Origin: Candidatus Steffania adelgidicola
GTDB taxonomy: Bacteria > Pseudomonadota > Gammaproteobacteria > Enterobacterales > Enterobacteriaceae
Direction of reading: 5' to 3'
NCBI RefSeq assembly: GCF_020541225.1
Contig: NZ_CP045889.1
Coordinates: 868,001-932,000, forward strand
Length of the DNA stretch: 64,000 bases
The position numbers and the translations under genes were made by a program. The notes beneath the pieces are model-generated. The model was not told the origin of the DNA. It searched no databases and was given only the letters and a program-made list of their open reading frames with translations. Positions 3,578-60,119 of this stretch are shown here, in pieces. Every line of letters starts with the position of its first letter. Within the stretch, counting starts at the first letter, position 1.

Positions 3578-5350
3578 ATGACACAAACTTTTATTTCAGG
3601 CAAAGATGCAAGTATCGAAGATTCCATTGCTCACTTTCAGATGCAGCTCAAAGTGCTTGGGTGCAATATTGAAGAAGTCTCATGGTTAAATCCTGTACCT
3701 AATATCTGGTCAGTACATATTCGCGATCGAGACTGTCCGATATGCTTTAGCAACGGCAAAGGCTTAACTCGTAATGCAGCCTTAGCTTCAGCGCTTGGCG
3801 AGTATTTTGAGCGCTTGTCTACAAACTATTTTTTTTCTGACTTTTATCTCGGTGCCACAATCGCCACCAGCGAATTCGTGCATTATCCCCATGAACGCTG
3901 GTTTATGCTTACCGACAAGAACACTCTACCTGCGGGTATTCTGGATAATCGTCTGCATGACTTCTACGATCCAAATCGAGAATTGAGTGGATACAATCTT
4001 GTAGATTTACAATCCAGTCAGATCGAGAGAGGAATTTGCGCTCTACCTTTTAATCAACAGTCTAATGGAAAAAACGTTTACATTCCGATTAATATCATTA
4101 ATACCCTCTACGCCTCCAATGGCATGGCAGCTGGCAATACTATCAGCGAAGCCCGGGTACAAGCGCTATCTGAAATATTGGAGCGTCATGTCAAAAATCG
4201 TATCATCTCAGAAGCTATCAGTCTACCGGCTATTCCAAATGCGGTCCTGTCAGGCTATCCAGCCGTTGCAGAAGCCATTAAGAGCCTAGAGGCTTCAGGA
4301 TTCCCTCTTTTTAGCTTTGATGCTTCGCTAGGCGGGAAGTTCCCAGTTATCTGCATCGCGTTATTTAATCCCGACAACGGCACTTGCTTCGCTTCGTTTG
4401 GTGCCCATCCGAATTTCGGGGTAGCGCTAGCGCGAACTCTAACCGAACTGCTGCAAGGGCGCAGCCTGAAAGACTTAGACGTGTTCACACCGCCGACTTT
4501 CGATAATCAAGCGCTTGCTGAACAAGCAAATCTGGAAACTCATTTTATTGATTCCAGTGGTCTGATATCCTGGGATATGTTTAAACAGGAATCTCAGTAT
4601 CCTTTTTCTAACTGGAATTTTAGTGGCACAACTGAAACAGAGTTTTGCATGCTTATGCGGATTTTTCAGCAACATGGAAGTGAGGTTTATATCGCCGATT
4701 ATCAGCATCTAGGCGTCTACTCTTGCCGGATCCTTGCGCCAGGAATGTCAGATGTCTATCCTACTGAAGATTTGTTGCTCAGCAATAATCCTATCGCGAT
4801 CGATCTTCGCTCAACAATCTGTAAACTTCCTGCAACTCGATGGGAAGCAAAAGACTACCTAGCCCTTCTAGAAAAAATTTACGAGACAAGGTTAGACGAC
4901 TTTATTCGCGTACGTGAATTCTTGGGCCTTGCTACCGATAGTAATAGTCCCTGGTTTACCTTAAGAGTCGGTGAGTTGAAAGCAATGTTAGCGTTAGCCG
5001 GCGGTGATCATGAGCAGGCTCTGATCTGGACTGAATGGACTCGAGATTTTAACGATTCAGGATTCAATTTACCATGGGATAATTATTACCGCTGTCTACA
5101 TACCCTACTGCAGTTGAAAAAAGACAAAATGCGTACAGCCGAACAATATCAAAATGCATTTACTCGTATGTATGGTGAACAAACTCTATCCGCCGCTAAA
5201 AAAGCGCTCTCTGGAGACACCCCTTTTTATAATCTAACACCGCTGGATAAAGATCTCTATGCCCTACCCGCACACCGTAGTCTATTGGTTATATATGAAA
5301 AAACACAGCAGGCTAAACGCTGTTTTTGGTCAAAACATAATCGCGCTTAA
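3578..5350 (+). CDS. ycaO: YcaO-domain protein (ribosomal S12 methylthiolation accessory factor)
   Basis: Full-length homologue (590 residues; E. coli 586) similar along the whole length. The N-terminal YcaO domain carries the ATP-binding YcaO signature regions (SALGEYFERLSTNYF near 75; SEARVQALSEILERHVKN near 210). The C-terminal part has the tetratricopeptide-like region (ELKAMLALAGGDHEQALIWTEW). Family knowledge: YcaO enzymes activate amide backbones with ATP, and E. coli YcaO assists RimO in beta-methylthiolation of ribosomal protein S12. Start: the ATG at 3578 (MTQTFISGKDA) matches E. coli; a GTG nine bases upstream is in frame. No precursor peptide or dehydrogenase gene lies beside it, so azoline-type natural product synthesis is not indicated. 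Confidence 0.93.
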   Translation: MTQTFISGKDASIEDSIAHFQMQLKVLGCNIEEVSWLNPVPNIWSVHIRDRDCPICFSNGKGLTRNAALASALGEYFERLSTNYFFSDFYLGATIATSEFVHYPHERWFMLTDKNTLPAGILDNRLHDFYDPNRELSGYNLVDLQSSQIERGICALPFNQQSNGKNVYIPINIINTLYASNGMAAGNTISEARVQALSEILERHVKNRIISEAISLPAIPNAVLSGYPAVAEAIKSLEASGFPLFSFDASLGGKFPVICIALFNPDNGTCFASFGAHPNFGVALARTLTELLQGRSLKDLDVFTPPTFDNQALAEQANLETHFIDSSGLISWDMFKQESQYPFSNWNFSGTTETEFCMLMRIFQQHGSEVYIADYQHLGVYSCRILAPGMSDVYPTEDLLLSNNPIAIDLRSTICKLPATRWEAKDYLALLEKIYETRLDDFIRVREFLGLATDSNSPWFTLRVGELKAMLALAGGDHEQALIWTEWTRDFNDSGFNLPWDNYYRCLHTLLQLKKDKMRTAEQYQNAFTRMYGEQTLSAAKKALSGDTPFYNLTPLDKDLYALPAHRSLLVIYEKTQQAKRCFWSKHNRA

Positions 5351-33478: not shown

Positions 33479-34432
33479 TTAAAACCGTAACAATGCTGAA
33501 CCCCAGGTGACCCCCCCCCCAAAAGCTTCGAGTAGTACTAAGTGTCCCGGCTGAATACGGGCATCTCGTACCGCTTCGTCTAGGGCTAACGGCACTGAAG
33601 CAGCAGATGTATTTCCATGCCGGTCAAGAGTAATCAGCACTTTCTCTATGCTAATATCTAAACGTTTAGCAGTGGCGGTAATAATTCGTAAATTAGCCTG
33701 ATGAGGTACTAACCAATCCAGATCTGTGCTGGTGAATGCGTTAGCGTTAAGCGTTTCGTCAACAATATTCGCTAATTCAGTAACTGCGACCTTAAAAACT
33801 TCGTTACCCGACATCTTCAAGTAAGCTGAAGAGGTAGGATTTAGGCGATTATGATACGGTAACGTTAGCAGATCGCCATAGCGACCATCGGCATGCAAAT
33901 GTGTCGAGATAATTCCTGGTGTAGTCGAGCGTCCAAGTAACACAGCACCGGCTCCGTCCCCGAATAAAACTAGCGTACCGCGATTCTCAGGGTCTAGGGT
34001 ATGACTAAGAGCATCGGAGCCGACCACAAGCGCATACTCAATTGTGCCATTCTTGATATAAGCATCTGCCACACTTAGCGCATACACAAAACCGGCACAG
34101 GCTGCAGCTAAATCAAAAGCAATGCAATTGTTAATTCTCAGTGCGCGCTGAATCTGACAGGCTGAACTAGGAAAAGCATGACTTGAGGAGGTGGTCGCAA
34201 CGATAATTATACCGACATTTTCTGCCTTAATAGAGGCCATATTCAGAGCATGCTTTGCAGCATGATGCCCCATGCTTGCAACGGTTTCATCGACACTAGC
34301 GATACGCCGTTCTCGAATGCCAGTGCGAGTAACAATCCACTCATCCGAAGTATCTACCATTTTTTCTAGGTCAGCATTAGACCGGATATGCTTCGGGAGA
34401 TAGCTTCCCGTACCAAAAATCTTAGTAAACAT
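33479..34432 (-). CDS. fabH: 3-oxoacyl-ACP synthase III
   Basis: Condenses acetyl-CoA with malonyl-ACP to start fatty acid synthesis. 317 residues, same as E. coli. Active-site Cys112 in [13 protein letters not shown], the His in [11 protein letters not shown] and the Asn in [14 protein letters not shown] are intact. The C-terminal [14 protein letters not shown] is encoded by a run of ten G (33511-33520 as C on the plus strand), a slippage-prone tract inside an essential gene. The ATG at 34432 lies 6 bases beyond the end of the plsX remnant. Confidence 0.96.
33511..33520. repeat. ten-base C/G homopolymer within fabH
   Basis: C10 on the plus strand, G10 in the fabH message, coding Gly-Gly-Gly plus the first base of Val seven codons after the last catalytic region. 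A gain or loss of one base would replace the last nine residues. Confidence 0.95.
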
Positions 34433-35649: not shown

Positions 35650-36065
35650 ACTCCTTGAGTATTTACGCTTTTACTTGATGAATATAAAAATGCATTAGAC
35701 TCATCCATCTTAGATGAGTCTTTAAGTAAATTAGTGTTCCTGTACAGAACACTTGGCAGCCCCGATAACAGACATATATCAGCGATATCCGTAATAAAGA
35801 ACAAATTTGAAATTTAATTATTTTCAATAAATCTAACCAGTTACATTGAGCTACGTAGGTGCATTTTTATATTTACAATCATATTTTTCCCCCGTTTACC
35901 CATAACAGCCAGCTGAAAGCTAAATATTGCAAATATCCGAAACAGATGCGGATCATTAGCCGCCGTTAGCAAAGATTTTTCTACACTTGCAAGATCGATC
36001 GACACGGCTAATCACTACTTATTGATTAAAAACGACAATATACGCTTGATATTTTTCATAAATTT
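35650..36065 (-). pseudogene. yceD: yceD remnant (conserved protein upstream of rpmF)
   Basis: yceD is cotranscribed with rpmF in enteric bacteria. The minus strand at 36005-35841 holds an open frame containing FAIFSFQLAVMGKRGKN, lining up with YceD FAIDNQRLAVLNGDAKV, preceded by LASVEKSLLTAA for QVERVAESVVSV. Close to rpm[11 protein letters not shown] and the DNA TAAAAGCGTAA resemble the YceD end NPFAVLASLKRK. Frames change and stops occur in between. A hairpin GACTCATC/GATGAGTC lies at 35698-35720 inside it. Confidence 0.55.
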
Positions 36066-36828
36066 TACCTATAAATGCAATTGTACAAATTGCCCAATCA
36101 GAGAATCGCTATGCATCAATAGTTTGATGATCTTCTTTTTTAAAAGATCTAGACTATTAGAATTATAAACATTAGGAGTTAAAAAAATGGTGTTTCCCAT
36201 CATGGTTTACCTATATTCACATTATTAATTCCAAATAGTTTAAAATAAAGCGATAGGTTATTATACGACATATAAAATACTGTTATTAACAATTATATCA
36301 CAGGAATCTGTATACTGTGTTAGGGCGCCTTAAGCCTAACAACCACAGCGTTTGTCTTTATAAGAGTAGAGCATCATGTATACTACAATACTTCTTACAT
36401 CTCATGATTACTACCGTAAAACAATTACTTTTTATGAGGCAGCATGTTTTTTTTGAATGAGTGCATTTAATGTTTATTAAAATCTCCTAGGGTATGCTCG
36501 CAGTTTTACTGCCTAAAACTAATTGGATAATAGACAATTATTAAACAGTTTAAAGATAATATTCATTATCATGAATGTTCTTAGACTACAAAGAGAATCT
36601 GTAAATTAGTTTACATTATATCTCTCTCCAGATAGATAGCTATACTATGGGATGGAATTAAACGGAAAATCAGCAGGCTGGCTCTCGAGCCCAGGTTTAT
36701 AAAATGATAAGAATTTATTAAAGCGTACGATTTGTATCAATAAAAATTATTGCACAAAATCTAGTGAATGAAAATTCATATAACATTTCCGAAATTCAAC
36801 GACTAATCGCTTACATAAATCCGTAAGA
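36066..36828. other. spacer between yceD remnant and gltA
   Basis: AT-rich. A structured element at 36315-36348 pairs CTGTG-TTAGG with CCTAA-CAAC-CACAG. Near 36680, GGCTC/GAGCC forms a short GC-rich dyad. No coding remnant recognised, and no clear gltA terminator. Confidence 0.5.
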
Positions 36829-38109
36829 TTACTTACTCTGGCTATGGAAATCTCGTCGTGCATAGCCGGTGTACAATTGGCGAGGACGAGCGATCTTCAA
36901 ACCATCATCGTGCATCTCTTTCCAGTGGGCAATCCAACCGACAGTACGCGCCATAGCAAAAATCACTGTAAACATGGTTGAAGGGATCCCCATGGCTTTT
37001 AATATGATGCCAGAATAGAAGTCAACATTTGGATACAGTTTTCGCTCTTTAAAATACGGGTCGTGTAGTGCGATATACTCAAGTTCCATCGCCACAGCCA
37101 AGAGATCATCTGAGAGTTTAAGTGTTTTTAATACTTCATGACAGGTTTCTCGCATCACGGTGGCACGGGGATCGTAGTTTTTATACACTCGATGTCCGAA
37201 GCCCATGAGGCGAAAGGCATCATTTTTATCCTTAGCGCGCTTAATAAACTCGGGGATATGCTCCACTTTATTGATCTCCTCAAGCATGCGCAAACAAGCT
37301 TCGTTTGCGCCACCATGGGCAGGTCCCCATAGGGAGGCTATACCCGCCGCTATACAGGCAAACGGATTAGCGCCTGAAGAGCCAGCGGTGCGAACCGTTG
37401 AGGTGGAAGCATTCTGTTCATGGTCAGCATGTAAAATAAGAATGCGATCCATAGCCCGCTCTAGTACCGGATCGACCTCGTAACTCTCACAGGGCGTAGC
37501 AAACATCATATGCAGAAAATTGCCGGCGTATGATAAATCATTGCGTGGATAGATAAAAATCTGACCTAGCGAATACTTGTAGCACATGGCTGCCACAGTA
37601 GGCATTTTCGACAACAAGCGGAACGCAGCAATTTCCCGGTGACGTTCGACATTCACATCCAGCGAGTCATGATAGAATGCTGCCAACGCGCCGGTAACCC
37701 CGCACATAACCGCCATCGGATGGGAGTCTCGGCGAAAACCATGAAACAGTCGCGTAATCTGTTCATGAATCATAGTATGCCGAGTTACGATAGTACGAAA
37801 CTCATCAAACTGCTCTTGTGTCGGGGCTTCACCGTTTAACAGAATATAGCAGACCTCTAGATAGTTCGACGAAAGCGCCAACTGATCAATAGGAAAGCCG
37901 CGGTGTAACAATATGCCTTGATCACCATCAATATAAGTGATCCTCGATTCACAGGAAGCAGTTGATGTGAAGCCGGGATCGAAAGTGAAATATCCCTGAG
38001 TTCCCAAGTTGCGGATATCAATCTCTTTTTCGCCCATGGTACCTATTAGCATACCCATGCAAATAGGGTCACCCCCCGCAGGAATCAAAGTTGCTTTACT
38101 TTCAGCCAT
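36829..38109 (-). CDS. gltA: citrate synthase
   Basis: Type II (NADH-regulated family) citrate synthase, first step of the TCA cycle; 426 residues (E. coli 427). Catalytic residues lie in [12 protein letters not shown] (His), [15 protein letters not shown] (His) and [15 protein letters not shown] (Asp). [20 protein letters not shown] and [23 protein letters not shown] are conserved. ATG at 38109 with AAGGAAGG upstream. Divergent from sdhCDAB as in E. coli. Confidence 0.98.
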
Positions 38110-38691
38110 TATACCTTCCTTTAGTTCCGGTCACAGCGCTTGGCGCTTTTCCCGGCCGCTTCTCCTTAGCAGGCTAAGCCAGGCGAAACCTGACGCTTCT
38201 CGCGTAAAAGTTGAATGAACGAACAGTATTCTTGAATGAACCTTTACTTAAGACATTGTCTTGTAGACAATGTCTTAACCCCCCCCTAATTAAAGTAATC
38301 ACATTATACTTTTGCATATTCCCGAATGGGAATAATGATTACATATATATATCATTAGATATATGGACTATAGCATAAAAAAGGGTGACTTATCGTTAAG
38401 GTCAAGCCATTCCCTTGTAAAATATTTAATAATTGTGATATTGATCGCTAAATTGTTTAAATCTTAATAAACTGGTTATATGGTAATTGTAATTATCATG
38501 TAAAATCTTTATGCTTTAATGAAGTCTCCGGAAAGCCCTTTGACAGAAATAAGCAGCGTTATTTAATACATCTACAATTTGCGTGTTAAGGAATTCTGGA
38601 TTTACCAGATGAGATTCAATACACTTTATCCCGTTAACGCTGTATTCTCTAAAGAAAACCAGAGGGGAAAAAGGAATATCGTAATAGTTTT
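38110..38691. promoter_or_regulatory. divergent gltA-sdhC control region
   Basis: 582 bases between two divergent TCA transcription units. Near gltA it is GC-rich with short hairpins: AGCGC/GCGCT, CTTAG/CTAAG (38165-38178) and CAGG/CCTG. Then come a perfect 31-base palindrome and an eight-base C run (38279-38286). In E. coli this region carries CRP and ArcA control; I cannot confirm those sites here. Confidence 0.6.
38248..38278. repeat. 31-base perfect palindrome upstream of gltA
   Basis: Arms TTAAGACATTGTCT (38248-38261) and AGACAATGTCTTAA (38265-38278) flank TGT. It ends at an eight-base C run. It lies about 140 bases from the gltA start and 410 from sdhC. Either an operator-like dyad, a cruciform or an RNA hairpin in the gltA leader. 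Confidence 0.9.
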
Positions 38692-39081
38692 ATGGGTAAA
38701 CCCGTGAAAAAACAAAGACCTATTAACTTAAATCTTCGAACAATCCGGTTCCCTATCACTGCAGTCGCATCCATTCTTCATCGCATATCCGGCGTTGTCA
38801 TGTTTATAGCCATCGGTATACTCCTCTGGATACTTGGAGTATCCCTTGCCTCTCCTTCAGGTTTTATCCAAGCATCATGCATGATGGATCATCTACTCAT
38901 GAAATTTTTGTTTTGGGCTATTCTCACAGCGTGTGCCTATCACACTCTTGCTGGCATCCGTCATATTCTGATGGATTTCGGCTATCTAGAAGAAACATTG
39001 AAGCTAGGTAACGCTACCGCAATTATCACATTTTCACTAACCGTCGTCCTGTCCATGTTAGCTGGAGTTTTTTTATGGTAA
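38692..39081 (+). CDS. sdhC: succinate dehydrogenase cytochrome b556 subunit
   Basis: Membrane anchor of complex II; 129 residues, same as E. coli. Three membrane helices. Quinone-site Ser27/Arg31 (ASILHR) and heme ligand His84 ([11 protein letters not shown]) are present, with DFGYLEETL after. Overlaps sdhD by 7 bases, the start of an eight-gene block reaching sucD. Confidence 0.97.
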
Positions 39082-39422
39082 GCAATACCTCGGCGTTAGG
39101 GCGTAACGGAGTTCATGAGTGGTTATTAGTTCGTTCATCCGCAATTTTAATTTTCCTTTACATAATGTATCTTGCTGGTTTTATTTTGTTTTCAGAATCT
39201 CTTACTTATGAGCTTTGGCGTAGTTTTTTTAGCAATTCCATTATGAAAGTATTTACTATGCTAACCCTGCTTTCTATTTTAGTGCATACTTGGATCGGGA
39301 TGTGGCAGATATTAACTGATTACATCAAAACTCTGTCCCTACGGCTTCTGCTGCAGTTAGCTATCGCCACTGTGCTTATAGCATACTTACTTTATGGAAC
39401 TGTTATTGTCTGGGGGGTATAG
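39075..39422 (+). CDS. sdhD: succinate dehydrogenase membrane anchor subunit
   Basis: 115 residues, same length as E. coli. Three membrane helices. Heme ligand His71 ([13 protein letters not shown]) and quinone-site Tyr83 (LTDYIKTL) retained. Ends in the E. coli-like VIVWGV. Three bases separate it from sdhA. Confidence 0.97.
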
Positions 39423-39425
39423 TCA

Positions 39426-41192
39426 ATGAGACTGCCAGTAAGAGAGTTTGAGGCTATTGTAATTGGCGCAGGAGGCGCGGGCATGCGTGCTGCACTACAA
39501 ATTTCCCAGATGGGGCTCTCCTGCGCCTTAATTTCCAAAGTTTTTCCGACGCGCTCCCATACAGTATCAGCACAGGGTGGCATTACCGTTGCACTCGGCA
39601 ATAGCCATGAAGACGACTGGCAATGGCACATGTATGATACAGTAAAAGGGTCGGACTATATTGGAGATCAAGACGCCATTGAATATATGTGTAAAACTGG
39701 CCCAGAAGCCGTACTAGAGCTAGAGCATATGGGATTACCATTTTCCCGTTTCGATGACGGGCGCATCTATCAGCGCCCGTTTGGTGGCCAATCGATTCAG
39801 TATGGGGGCGCACAGGCGGCGCGCACCGCAGCTTCTGCTGACCGTACTGGGCATGCACTGCTACATACGCTTTACCAGCAAAACCTAAAAAACCACACCA
39901 CTATTTTTTCTGAATGGTATGCTCTAGATCTCGTCAAAAATCAGGATGCAGTGGTAGTAGGTTGCACCGGACTCTGTATTGAAACCGGAGAAGTGATCTA
40001 TTTTAAAGCCGCCGCAACCATTCTAGCTACCGGTGGTGCCGGACGTATATACCCATCCACAACCAACGCGCACATAAATACTGGCGATGGCATCGGCATG
40101 GCACTACGCGCGGGCGCGCCTGTCCAAGATATGGAAATGTGGCAATTTCATCCTACCGGTATCGCGGGCGCAGGAGTCCTAGTCACTGAGGGGTGTCGTG
40201 GTGAAGGCGGTTATTTACTGAATAAAAACGGTGAACGCTTCATGGAGCGTTACGCACCGAATACCAAGGATCTAGCAGGCCGAGATGTGGTAGCTCGTTC
40301 GATCATGATCGAGATTCGCGAAGGCCGGGGCTGCAATGGACCGTGGGGGCCGCACGTAAAACTGAAACTCGACCATTTAGGAAAAGAGGTACTGGAATCT
40401 CGTTTACCGGGGATACTAGAACTATCACGCACCTTTGCTCACGTGGACCCGATTAAAGAAACAATTCCCGTCACTCCTACTTGTCATTATATGATGGGGG
40501 GCGTTCCAACAAAAGTAACTGGTCAGGTCATTAATCTTAACGACACAGGTAAAGAGGTAGTAATCCCTGGCCTATTCGCTGTAGGTGAAGTTGCCTGCGT
40601 ATCGGTACACGGTGCGAATCGATTAGGCGGTAATTCGCTTCTAGATCTAATAGTTTTCGGTCGTGCAGCTGGGATACATCTGCAAGCATTACTACAAGAG
40701 CAGGGGCCGTCGCGTGATGCTAGCAACAATGACATCGATGCAGCAATGGGTCGCTATCATCGCTGGAATAACAATCGTTGTGGCGAAAATCCGGTTCAAA
40801 TCCGTCAAGCGCTACAGCTCTGTATGCAAAACAACTTCTCCGTATTTCGAGAAGGGGACACAATGGCTCAGGGACTGGAAGAGCTTAAAGAAATCCGAGA
40901 ACGTTTGCATCATGCTCGTCTTGATGATACTTCACAAGCATTCAACACCCAGAGGGTGGAATGCCTGGAGCTAGATAATCTAATGGCAACCGCTTACTCT
41001 ACTGCAGTCGCAGCAAATTTCCGAACTGAAAGCCGCGGTGCCCACAGCCGCTTTGACTTCCCAAATCGCGATGATGAAAACTGGCTGTGTCACTCACTGT
41101 ACTTACCAGAACGTGATATTATGACTCGACGTAAAGTCAATATGAAACCAACATTACGCGCGGCGTTTCCGCCGAGAGTGCGCACTTACTAA
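39426..41192 (+). CDS. sdhA: succinate dehydrogenase flavoprotein subunit
   Basis: Oxidises succinate to fumarate; covalently bound FAD. 588 residues, same as E. coli and closely similar throughout. N-terminal FAD loop [16 protein letters not shown]-linking His45 in [13 protein letters not shown], substrate region [10 protein letters not shown], and active-site residues in GRDVVARSI. SdhE, which flavinylates this His, is encoded at 6.6-6.8 kb. Confidence 0.98.
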
Positions 41193-58655: not shown

Positions 58656-60119
58656 ATGATTACTCGTCTTGTTTGGCTACGTAACGATCTCCGAATCCAT
58701 GATAATACAGCATTACATGCTGCCTGCAACGAGCAGGAAGTAAAGGTCCTTGCTGTCTTTATCGCTACGCCTGTACAATGGCGCCGGCATGGAATGTCTC
58801 CTCGCCAAGCAACATTTATCTACGATAATCTAATATATTTAGAACAAGCATTGACAGAATGTCAGATTCCTTTTCTGTATCATCAATGCGATGATTTTAA
58901 TGCTGCAGTAAGATGGTTGCGCAATTATTGTTATAAAGAAGAGGTCAAGGAAATTTTCTATAATCGTCAGTATGAAGTAAACGAACGTAAACGTGATCTC
59001 CAATTAGAAATGGAGATAGGTAAGGAAACAATTTGTAAAGGTTTTGATGATGGGGTAATCCTGCCACCAGGCAGTATCTTAAATCAGAAGCTTCAGATGT
59101 ACAAGATATATACACCATTTCGCACGGCATTTGTTCGTAAACTAATAGCATCGGAAATCTCTCCATTACCCTCCCCTAAAGTTCGTCAAGGGGGGGGGGG
59201 CCAACAAAAAATTCCTTTTTTTGATTATCCCCATCAAAAAGTAGATAAAAAATTTCCTTCTGGTGAAAAAGCAGCGTTAAATCGCTTACGCACATTTTGT
59301 CAAGTTGGAATGCCAACCTATATTCAACGACGTGATCTACCAGGTATTAACGGTACCAGTTGTTTATCTCCCTACTTAACGATTGGTGTCATTTCACCTC
59401 GACAATGTCTTCATGAATTATATGTAGCATACCCAGATTTTTTAGAGAAAACGGATAGTTCTCCTTTCTGTTGGTTCAGTGAGCTGATCTGGCGTGAATT
59501 TTATCGTCATTTAATCGTAGCATATCCATTTTTATGTATGAATAAACCGTTTATTAATTGGACCGATAATATATTCTGGAATAAAAATCCAGCAGCTTTA
59601 CATGCCTGGCAACAAGGAATCACTGGATACCCTCTCGTTGACGCAGCGATGCGTCAACTCAATACAATAGGGTGGATGCATAATCGCCTACGAATGATCA
59701 CCGCTAGCTTCTTAGTCAAAAACCTTCTAATTGATTGGAGAATAGGTGAGCAGTATTTTATGTCACAGTTATTAGATGGAGATTTGGCAGCTAACAATGG
59801 GGGTTGGCAATGGGCAGCCTCTACAGGTACTGATGCAGCACCTTATTTTAGGATTTTCAATCCCACTACTCAAGGGAAGCGTTACGATCCAAAAGGTAAT
59901 TTTATACGAAAATGGGTGCCTGAACTCAACCATGTTCCAGATGAATATATCTATGCTCCACATGCTTGGTTAGAAAGAAATGGAGCAGTCCTAAATTATC
60001 CAGAAAAAATTATTGATTATCAGCATACTCAAAAAAAAACCCTCGCTGCATTTCATGCCGCTAAGGATTATTCCTTTAAAATTTCAAGAAAAAATTCCTT
60101 TATGAATAAAAATTCATAA
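58656..60119 (+). CDS. phrB: deoxyribodipyrimidine photolyase
   Basis: Light-driven repair of cyclobutane pyrimidine dimers. 487 residues (E. coli 472). N-terminal antenna domain (MITRLVWLRNDLRIHDNTAL; MSPRQATFIYDNL) and C-terminal FAD domain (SELIWREFYRHLI; GYPLVDAAMRQLNTIGWMHN; ANNGGWQWAASTGTDAAPYF; FNPTTQGKRYDP). A run of eleven G (59190-59200) encodes Gly-Gly-Gly-Gly in the poorly conserved linker near residue 180. The reading frame is intact as given. The gene is more AT-rich than the TCA genes. It stands alone; a photolyase is notable for an organism living inside an insect but is known from several such symbionts. Confidence 0.95.
   Translation: MITRLVWLRNDLRIHDNTALHAACNEQEVKVLAVFIATPVQWRRHGMSPRQATFIYDNLIYLEQALTECQIPFLYHQCDDFNAAVRWLRNYCYKEEVKEIFYNRQYEVNERKRDLQLEMEIGKETICKGFDDGVILPPGSILNQKLQMYKIYTPFRTAFVRKLIASEISPLPSPKVRQGGGGQQKIPFFDYPHQKVDKKFPSGEKAALNRLRTFCQVGMPTYIQRRDLPGINGTSCLSPYLTIGVISPRQCLHELYVAYPDFLEKTDSSPFCWFSELIWREFYRHLIVAYPFLCMNKPFINWTDNIFWNKNPAALHAWQQGITGYPLVDAAMRQLNTIGWMHNRLRMITASFLVKNLLIDWRIGEQYFMSQLLDGDLAANNGGWQWAASTGTDAAPYFRIFNPTTQGKRYDPKGNFIRKWVPELNHVPDEYIYAPHAWLERNGAVLNYPEKIIDYQHTQKKTLAAFHAAKDYSFKISRKNSFMNKNS
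59190..59200 (+). repeat. eleven-base G homopolymer within phrB
   Basis: G11 in the sense strand between Gln and Gln codons of the interdomain linker. Length change by one base would shift the frame and remove the FAD domain, so it is a potential on/off or slippage site. Confidence 0.95.

Follow-up and report, generated by a model that had tools for sequence, protein, structure and literature searches.

A perfect 31-bp palindrome in the spacer between gltA and sdhC probably arose as a lineage-specific replication accident, by template switching in weakly constrained DNA, at the place of what appears to be an eroded gltA promoter. This origin is the most likely one because the palindrome is single-copy, is absent from the relatives examined, and is one of dozens of unrelated palindromes in the non-coding DNA of the same genome. 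The window, by which we mean the whole 64,000-nt stretch that was analysed, is part of a single-contig genome of 1,369,541 bases. A search of 40 relatives found the closest GltA, 95% identical, in a 5.2-Mb genome (G004), and the closest named SdhC records, in a search that may leave out records of the genome itself, are those of Candidatus Sodalis endolongispinus and Candidatus Sodalis sp. SoCistrobi (71%). These nearest matches therefore point to a Sodalis-allied reduced genome, presumably that of a symbiont.

The two genes diverge from a spacer of 582 bp, and the initial annotation was right to place the palindrome between them. It spans -139 to -169 of gltA, and its edge nearer to sdhC stands at -414 from that gene. 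The sequence reads TTAAGACATTGTCT / TGT / AGACAATGTCTTAA, and the C8 tract CCCCCCCC follows directly on the plus strand. A 31-base perfect palindrome plus C8 at 38248-38286 had been described initially, exactly in both sequence and coordinates, and the inverted-repeat scan confirmed its 14-base arms without mismatch. Each arm contains the near-palindromic 11-mer AGACAWTGTCT, so an alternative reading of the palindrome is a tandem pair of that 11-mer. Folded as RNA, the hairpin has an energy of -18.1 kcal/mol (z -5.2). A search of window positions 36000-40000 for Rfam families gave 0 matches at E values up to 1.

Features of the gltA-sdhC region (window coordinates)
Feature	Position	Strand	Description and basis
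gltA	36829..38109	-	citrate synthase, 426 aa; ORF and citrate synthase domain
Palindrome, 14-nt arms and 3-nt loop	38248..38278		direct reading and inverted-repeat scan
TCTACA	38262..38267	-	probable, approximate place of the relatives' -10-like ATTAAT, inside the palindrome; alignment-dependent register
C8 tract (G8 on the gltA strand)	38279..38286	+	occupies the spacer place of the relatives' promoter-like element
TTAATT	38288..38293	-	counterpart of the relatives' -35-like TTGACC, three transitions; alignment by eye
TATAAT	38303..38308	-	candidate new gltA -10, with TTCCCA 18 nt upstream; promoter scan, not above chance
sdhC	38692..39081	+	succinate dehydrogenase cytochrome subunit, 129 aa; ORF and Sdh_cyt domain

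Ten dinucleotide shuffles of the window yielded no inverted-repeat arm above 11, and the palindrome therefore exceeds what base composition gives. The window itself holds five perfect inverted repeats with arms of at least 12 and loops up to 20, the gltA palindrome included. We extended the count to a 464-kb sample, made up of 20 stretches and the window and amounting to about a third of the genome, and recorded perfect non-simple palindromes with arms of at least 12 after one simple-repeat case had been dropped. The sample contains 44 of them (26 with arms of at least 14), compared with 2 in three shuffles. Scanned without the simple-repeat filter, it has arms of up to 28, and the three shuffles gave 3 palindromes, one with 17-nt arms. 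Long ORFs, defined as those of 120 aa or more, cover 52% of the sample, and 43 of the 44 palindromes lie outside them (44 of 45 if the simple repeat is included). By manual count, 33 of these 44 non-ORF palindromes, simple repeat included, lie 200 nt or more from any long ORF seen, and 8 of these 33 are close to where a stretch ends and have no ORF in view on one side; the gltA palindrome, 139 nt from gltA, is among the 11 that are closer. The density of 19.1 per 100 kb of non-ORF DNA means that a 582-bp spacer is expected to hold 0.11 on average. The palindrome is thus improbable by base composition yet ordinary for this genome. About a third of the genome yielded dozens of unrelated ones, almost all of them outside long ORFs; where symbiont DNA drifts fast, the length and perfection of a palindrome therefore say little about selection. 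The longest in the sample, at L182:6901-6957, has 28-nt arms and a 1-nt loop and lies 2 nt before a 393-aa ORF; at L171:7036-7083, a tandem repeat of the hexamer TATCTA gives nested inverted repeats.

We compared the homologous place in eight Sodalis-group loci (L133-L138, L052 and L053), scanning for inverted repeats with arms of at least 7 and loops up to 12. In none of the eight does any such repeat stand at the place of the palindrome. L133 and L138 have one 7-nt-arm inverted repeat each, inside the start of gltA, and the homologous 45-mers of the eight loci fold at -2.2 to -3.4 kcal/mol, as against the value of -18.1 here. Among three other loci scanned for arms of at least 7, L139 has one inverted repeat at about -513, L140 has none, and L141, from a 0.6-Mb genome of the same family, has six; in L141 an unrelated 7-nt-arm repeat stands at the same distance from gltA as the window palindrome. 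Another of the six is an unrelated loop-less palindrome with 14-nt arms, approximately 675 nt upstream of gltA. These comparisons support an origin of the palindrome within this lineage. The initial annotation had read the mismatch-free arms as a sign of selection or very recent origin and had suggested comparing the region in relatives; the absence from the Sodalis-group loci supports an origin within the lineage, of whatever age, and selection is not supported. Its further proposal, that the element coordinates the two TCA units, has nothing in its favour. Both selection and coordination lack support because conservation is missing, a search for second copies stayed at control level, and the palindrome is one of many unrelated ones that lie mostly outside ORFs.

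What the relatives do share at this place is a promoter-like element. In seven of the eight Sodalis-group loci it reads TTGACC-N17-ATTAAT, starting 214-219 nt upstream of gltA, and in the eighth, L133, TTGACC-N17-ATTTAT. It resembles TTGACC-N17-TATTAG, which 52 of 80 enterobacterial gltA-sdhC loci carry; these 80 were the top-ranking ones among 98 sdhC loci found, two Sodalis included. With a spacer of 15-19 and a distance of up to 450 nt upstream of gltA allowed, 53 loci have a match, and in 47 of them it lies 242-252 nt upstream; the remaining 27 of the 80, Photorhabdus and others included, have no promoter-like match, and the TTGACC-N17 element is therefore common, not universal. Its sequence and conservation suggest that it is a gltA promoter. 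In the window this element is gone or unrecognisable, with G8 in its spacer and the palindrome over its -10 position; compared with the gltA promoters of other Enterobacteriaceae, the site of a widely shared promoter-like element is taken up here by palindrome and G8. For E. coli gltA, two mapped starts are mentioned and a figure legend labels gltAp1 and gltAp2 after Wilde and Guest 1986 (PMC4718724). The literature yielded no usable coordinates for mapped gltA starts.

An accident of replication would account for this arrangement as follows. The polymerase would briefly have copied the nascent or the opposite strand (template switching or quasipalindrome correction), converting a weak inverted repeat upstream of gltA into a perfect 14-bp stem, and the product would persist because the DNA is under weak constraint. 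Palindrome and G8 would have come to lie on the promoter-like element seen in relatives; if the gltA start is now further upstream, the hairpin would be a passenger of the leader whose effect is mild at most. Published work describes template switching as able to produce a perfect hairpin in a single event (PMC8794818) and, in E. coli, as rendering quasipalindromes more perfect (PMC7202029). In a survey of all bacteria, endosymbionts are reported to be over-represented among genomes with many inverted repeats, making up 28 of the top 200 genomes by inverted-repeat frequency (14%) and 1% of the bottom 200 (PMC10434271). A second genome of 1.4 Mb, G164, has a comparable set of palindromes, 39 in 400 kb. 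Like template-switch hairpins, the gltA palindrome is a perfect inverted repeat with a short spacer and unique sequence, absent from the homologous site in the eight loci, in DNA that looks weakly constrained; it differs in that the ancestral sequence is too diverged for switch points to be traced. The switch event itself we infer, and likewise that the promoter no longer works, where gltA transcription now starts, and that the hairpin has no function.

In an ungapped comparison by eye with L135, the left arm matches at approximately 7 of 14 positions and the right arm at approximately 9 of 14. By eye too, TTAAGA at the left arm is shared with most relatives, and on the right the partly complementary TTTTCAA occurs in some; this pattern is compatible with template switching, at a divergence that prevents proof. 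The switch cannot be reconstructed because the ancestral sequence is known solely from relatives that are approximately 82% identical in gltA. We also compared two genome regions holding five other palindromes with six Sodalis-group genomes. The matches reported in the first region are a multi-copy IS-like element, which reaches query position 1339, and a second block, 2123-2843; a 23-nt-arm palindrome (query 1576-1626) lies between them, and a 13-nt-arm palindrome (1331-1368) touches the end of the first match. The three palindromes of the second region (query 507-535, 2015-2047 and 3684-3713) are all outside reported matches (0/3 inside). Four of the five thus fall outside all reported matches and one merely touches a match end, and because the DNA there is not covered by matches, no ancestral state was recovered for them. 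The stretch L178:15000-16340 is 90-94% identical to a multi-copy IS-like element of Sodalis-group genomes, above the figure for gltA.

Several observations count against an accident. Whereas 33 of 44 palindromes are far from ORFs, the gene that begins 139 nt from this hairpin is intact and belongs to central metabolism. A T-rich flank accompanies 12 of the 44 sampled palindromes, which may be terminators. The density of palindromes in non-ORF DNA exceeds the value for the large relative G004 only by a factor of about 1.7 (19.1 compared with 11.3), and in G164 10 of 39 palindromes are inside ORFs.

Other origins and roles were weighed against these data. A functional hairpin near the 5′ end of gltA mRNA, newly evolved and serving in decay protection or translation tuning, seems unlikely to us. 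The palindrome lies downstream, in the gltA sense, of the sole promoter-like match, and a leader hairpin is for that reason physically possible. If TATAAT at 38303-38308 were used, the hairpin would sit at about +19 to +49, and it may thus belong to the gltA leader. The presumed 188-nt leader folds at -63.6 kcal/mol, more stably than shuffles (z -3.9), and partly because of this hairpin. However, promoter-like sites in the region number 1 against 2.5 expected by chance, many comparable palindromes lie far from long ORFs, and neither presence nor folding pointed to a conserved gltA leader stem in the eight Sodalis-group loci. The gltA leader hairpin suggested by the initial annotation accordingly has a possible position but no comparative support. 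An operator is very unlikely. It would consist of the tandem AGACAWTGTCT 11-mers, whose centres are 14 bp apart, and a dimeric factor bound to them would act on gltA and perhaps also on sdhC. Direct reading shows each arm to be itself near-palindromic, and in E. coli the sdhC/gltA region is described as having divergent promoters and two regions bound by ArcA (PMC3798270), but nothing corresponds to such a site at the homologous place in the Sodalis-group loci, and the genome holds no second copy above control level.

The searches of the whole genome on which this last point rests gave, for the arm with up to two mismatches, 9+10 matches, its own two arms included, and 11+8 for a reversed control pattern; the 23-nt palindrome core with up to three mismatches matched this site alone, and its control pattern 1+1. 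The initial annotation had proposed looking for further copies of the arm, and none above control level came to light. With arm and core both at control level, we rejected a REP or other repeated palindromic element. REP and palindromic repeat families resemble the present element in being short palindromes, of 20-40 bp as families (PMC3733652); REP families, in contrast, are high-copy. We give almost no credence to a REP- or MITE-like relic left here by some mobile or repeated palindromic sequence: a short, perfect, intergenic palindrome missing from this place in the Sodalis-group loci would suit it, but this genome holds no extra copies beyond control level and, by eye, no target-site duplication flanks the palindrome. 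A transcription terminator or attenuator between the divergent units is just as improbable. The palindrome shares with intrinsic terminators a stable, short stem-loop outside genes, but its stem is A+T-rich and it has a T run on neither side (C8 follows on the plus strand, GTAAAGG on the minus strand), and a terminator scan found none; an intrinsic terminator, with a G+C-rich stem and a T run, was rejected. Because the genes diverge, neither gltA nor sdhC needs a terminator in the spacer.

Palindrome density was determined by the same method in five genomes. The window's own genome (G000) has the 44 palindromes in 464 kb given above, at 19.1 per 100 kb of non-ORF DNA and 0.4 inside ORFs. The corresponding values are 16.1 and 4.5 for G164 (39 palindromes in 400 kb), 10.2 and 2.3 for G052 (1.4 Mb; 23 in 360 kb), 11.3 and 0.6 for G004 (11 in 400 kb), and 5.1 and 0 for G120 (4.3 Mb; 7 in 400 kb). 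With its palindromes inside ORFs, G164 indicates that confinement to non-ORF DNA is not general. In E. coli, mutations or structures of this sort are counteracted by ExoI, ExoVII and SbcCD. With eight genomes searched per family, the SbcC family TIGR00618 has matches in four, above the cut-off in G004 alone and as fragments only in G120, and no match in G000, G067, G105 or G164. The ExoI C-terminal domain was found in six of eight, G000 included, and not in G105 or G164; MutS was found in seven, G000 included, and not in G067; the ExoVII large subunit is found in seven and not in G052. The ExoVII large subunit of G000, at G000:C1:484680-485024, is a partial domain with 6 TAA stops. The two densest genomes, G000 and G164, are thus both without detectable SbcC and each lacks one of ExoI and ExoVII, G164 keeping ExoVII. 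G120, with SbcC fragments only, keeps both exonucleases and is the least dense. In G052, where ExoVII was the one nuclease of the three searched for and was not detected, palindromes are no denser than in G004. It is suggestive, in five sampled genomes that are too few for cause, that lost nucleases contribute to palindrome density. A bolder version of the template-switch origin, which we consider rather unlikely, is that nuclease loss let such palindromes accumulate and that one of them overwrote the ancestral gltA promoter, rewiring the gene to a new upstream start. If so, a structure made by mutation would have taken over from a conserved element that controlled a gene of central metabolism.

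Tracts of at least 8 C or G number 8 in the 464-kb sample, the C8 beside the palindrome included, compared with 4 in three shuffles. The window, with a G+C content of 38.5%, also has a C10 tract at 33511-33520, in the C-terminal part of a FabH-type 3-oxoacyl-ACP synthase III ORF (33479-34432, minus strand), and a G11 tract at 59190-59200 within a DNA photolyase ORF (58656-60119).
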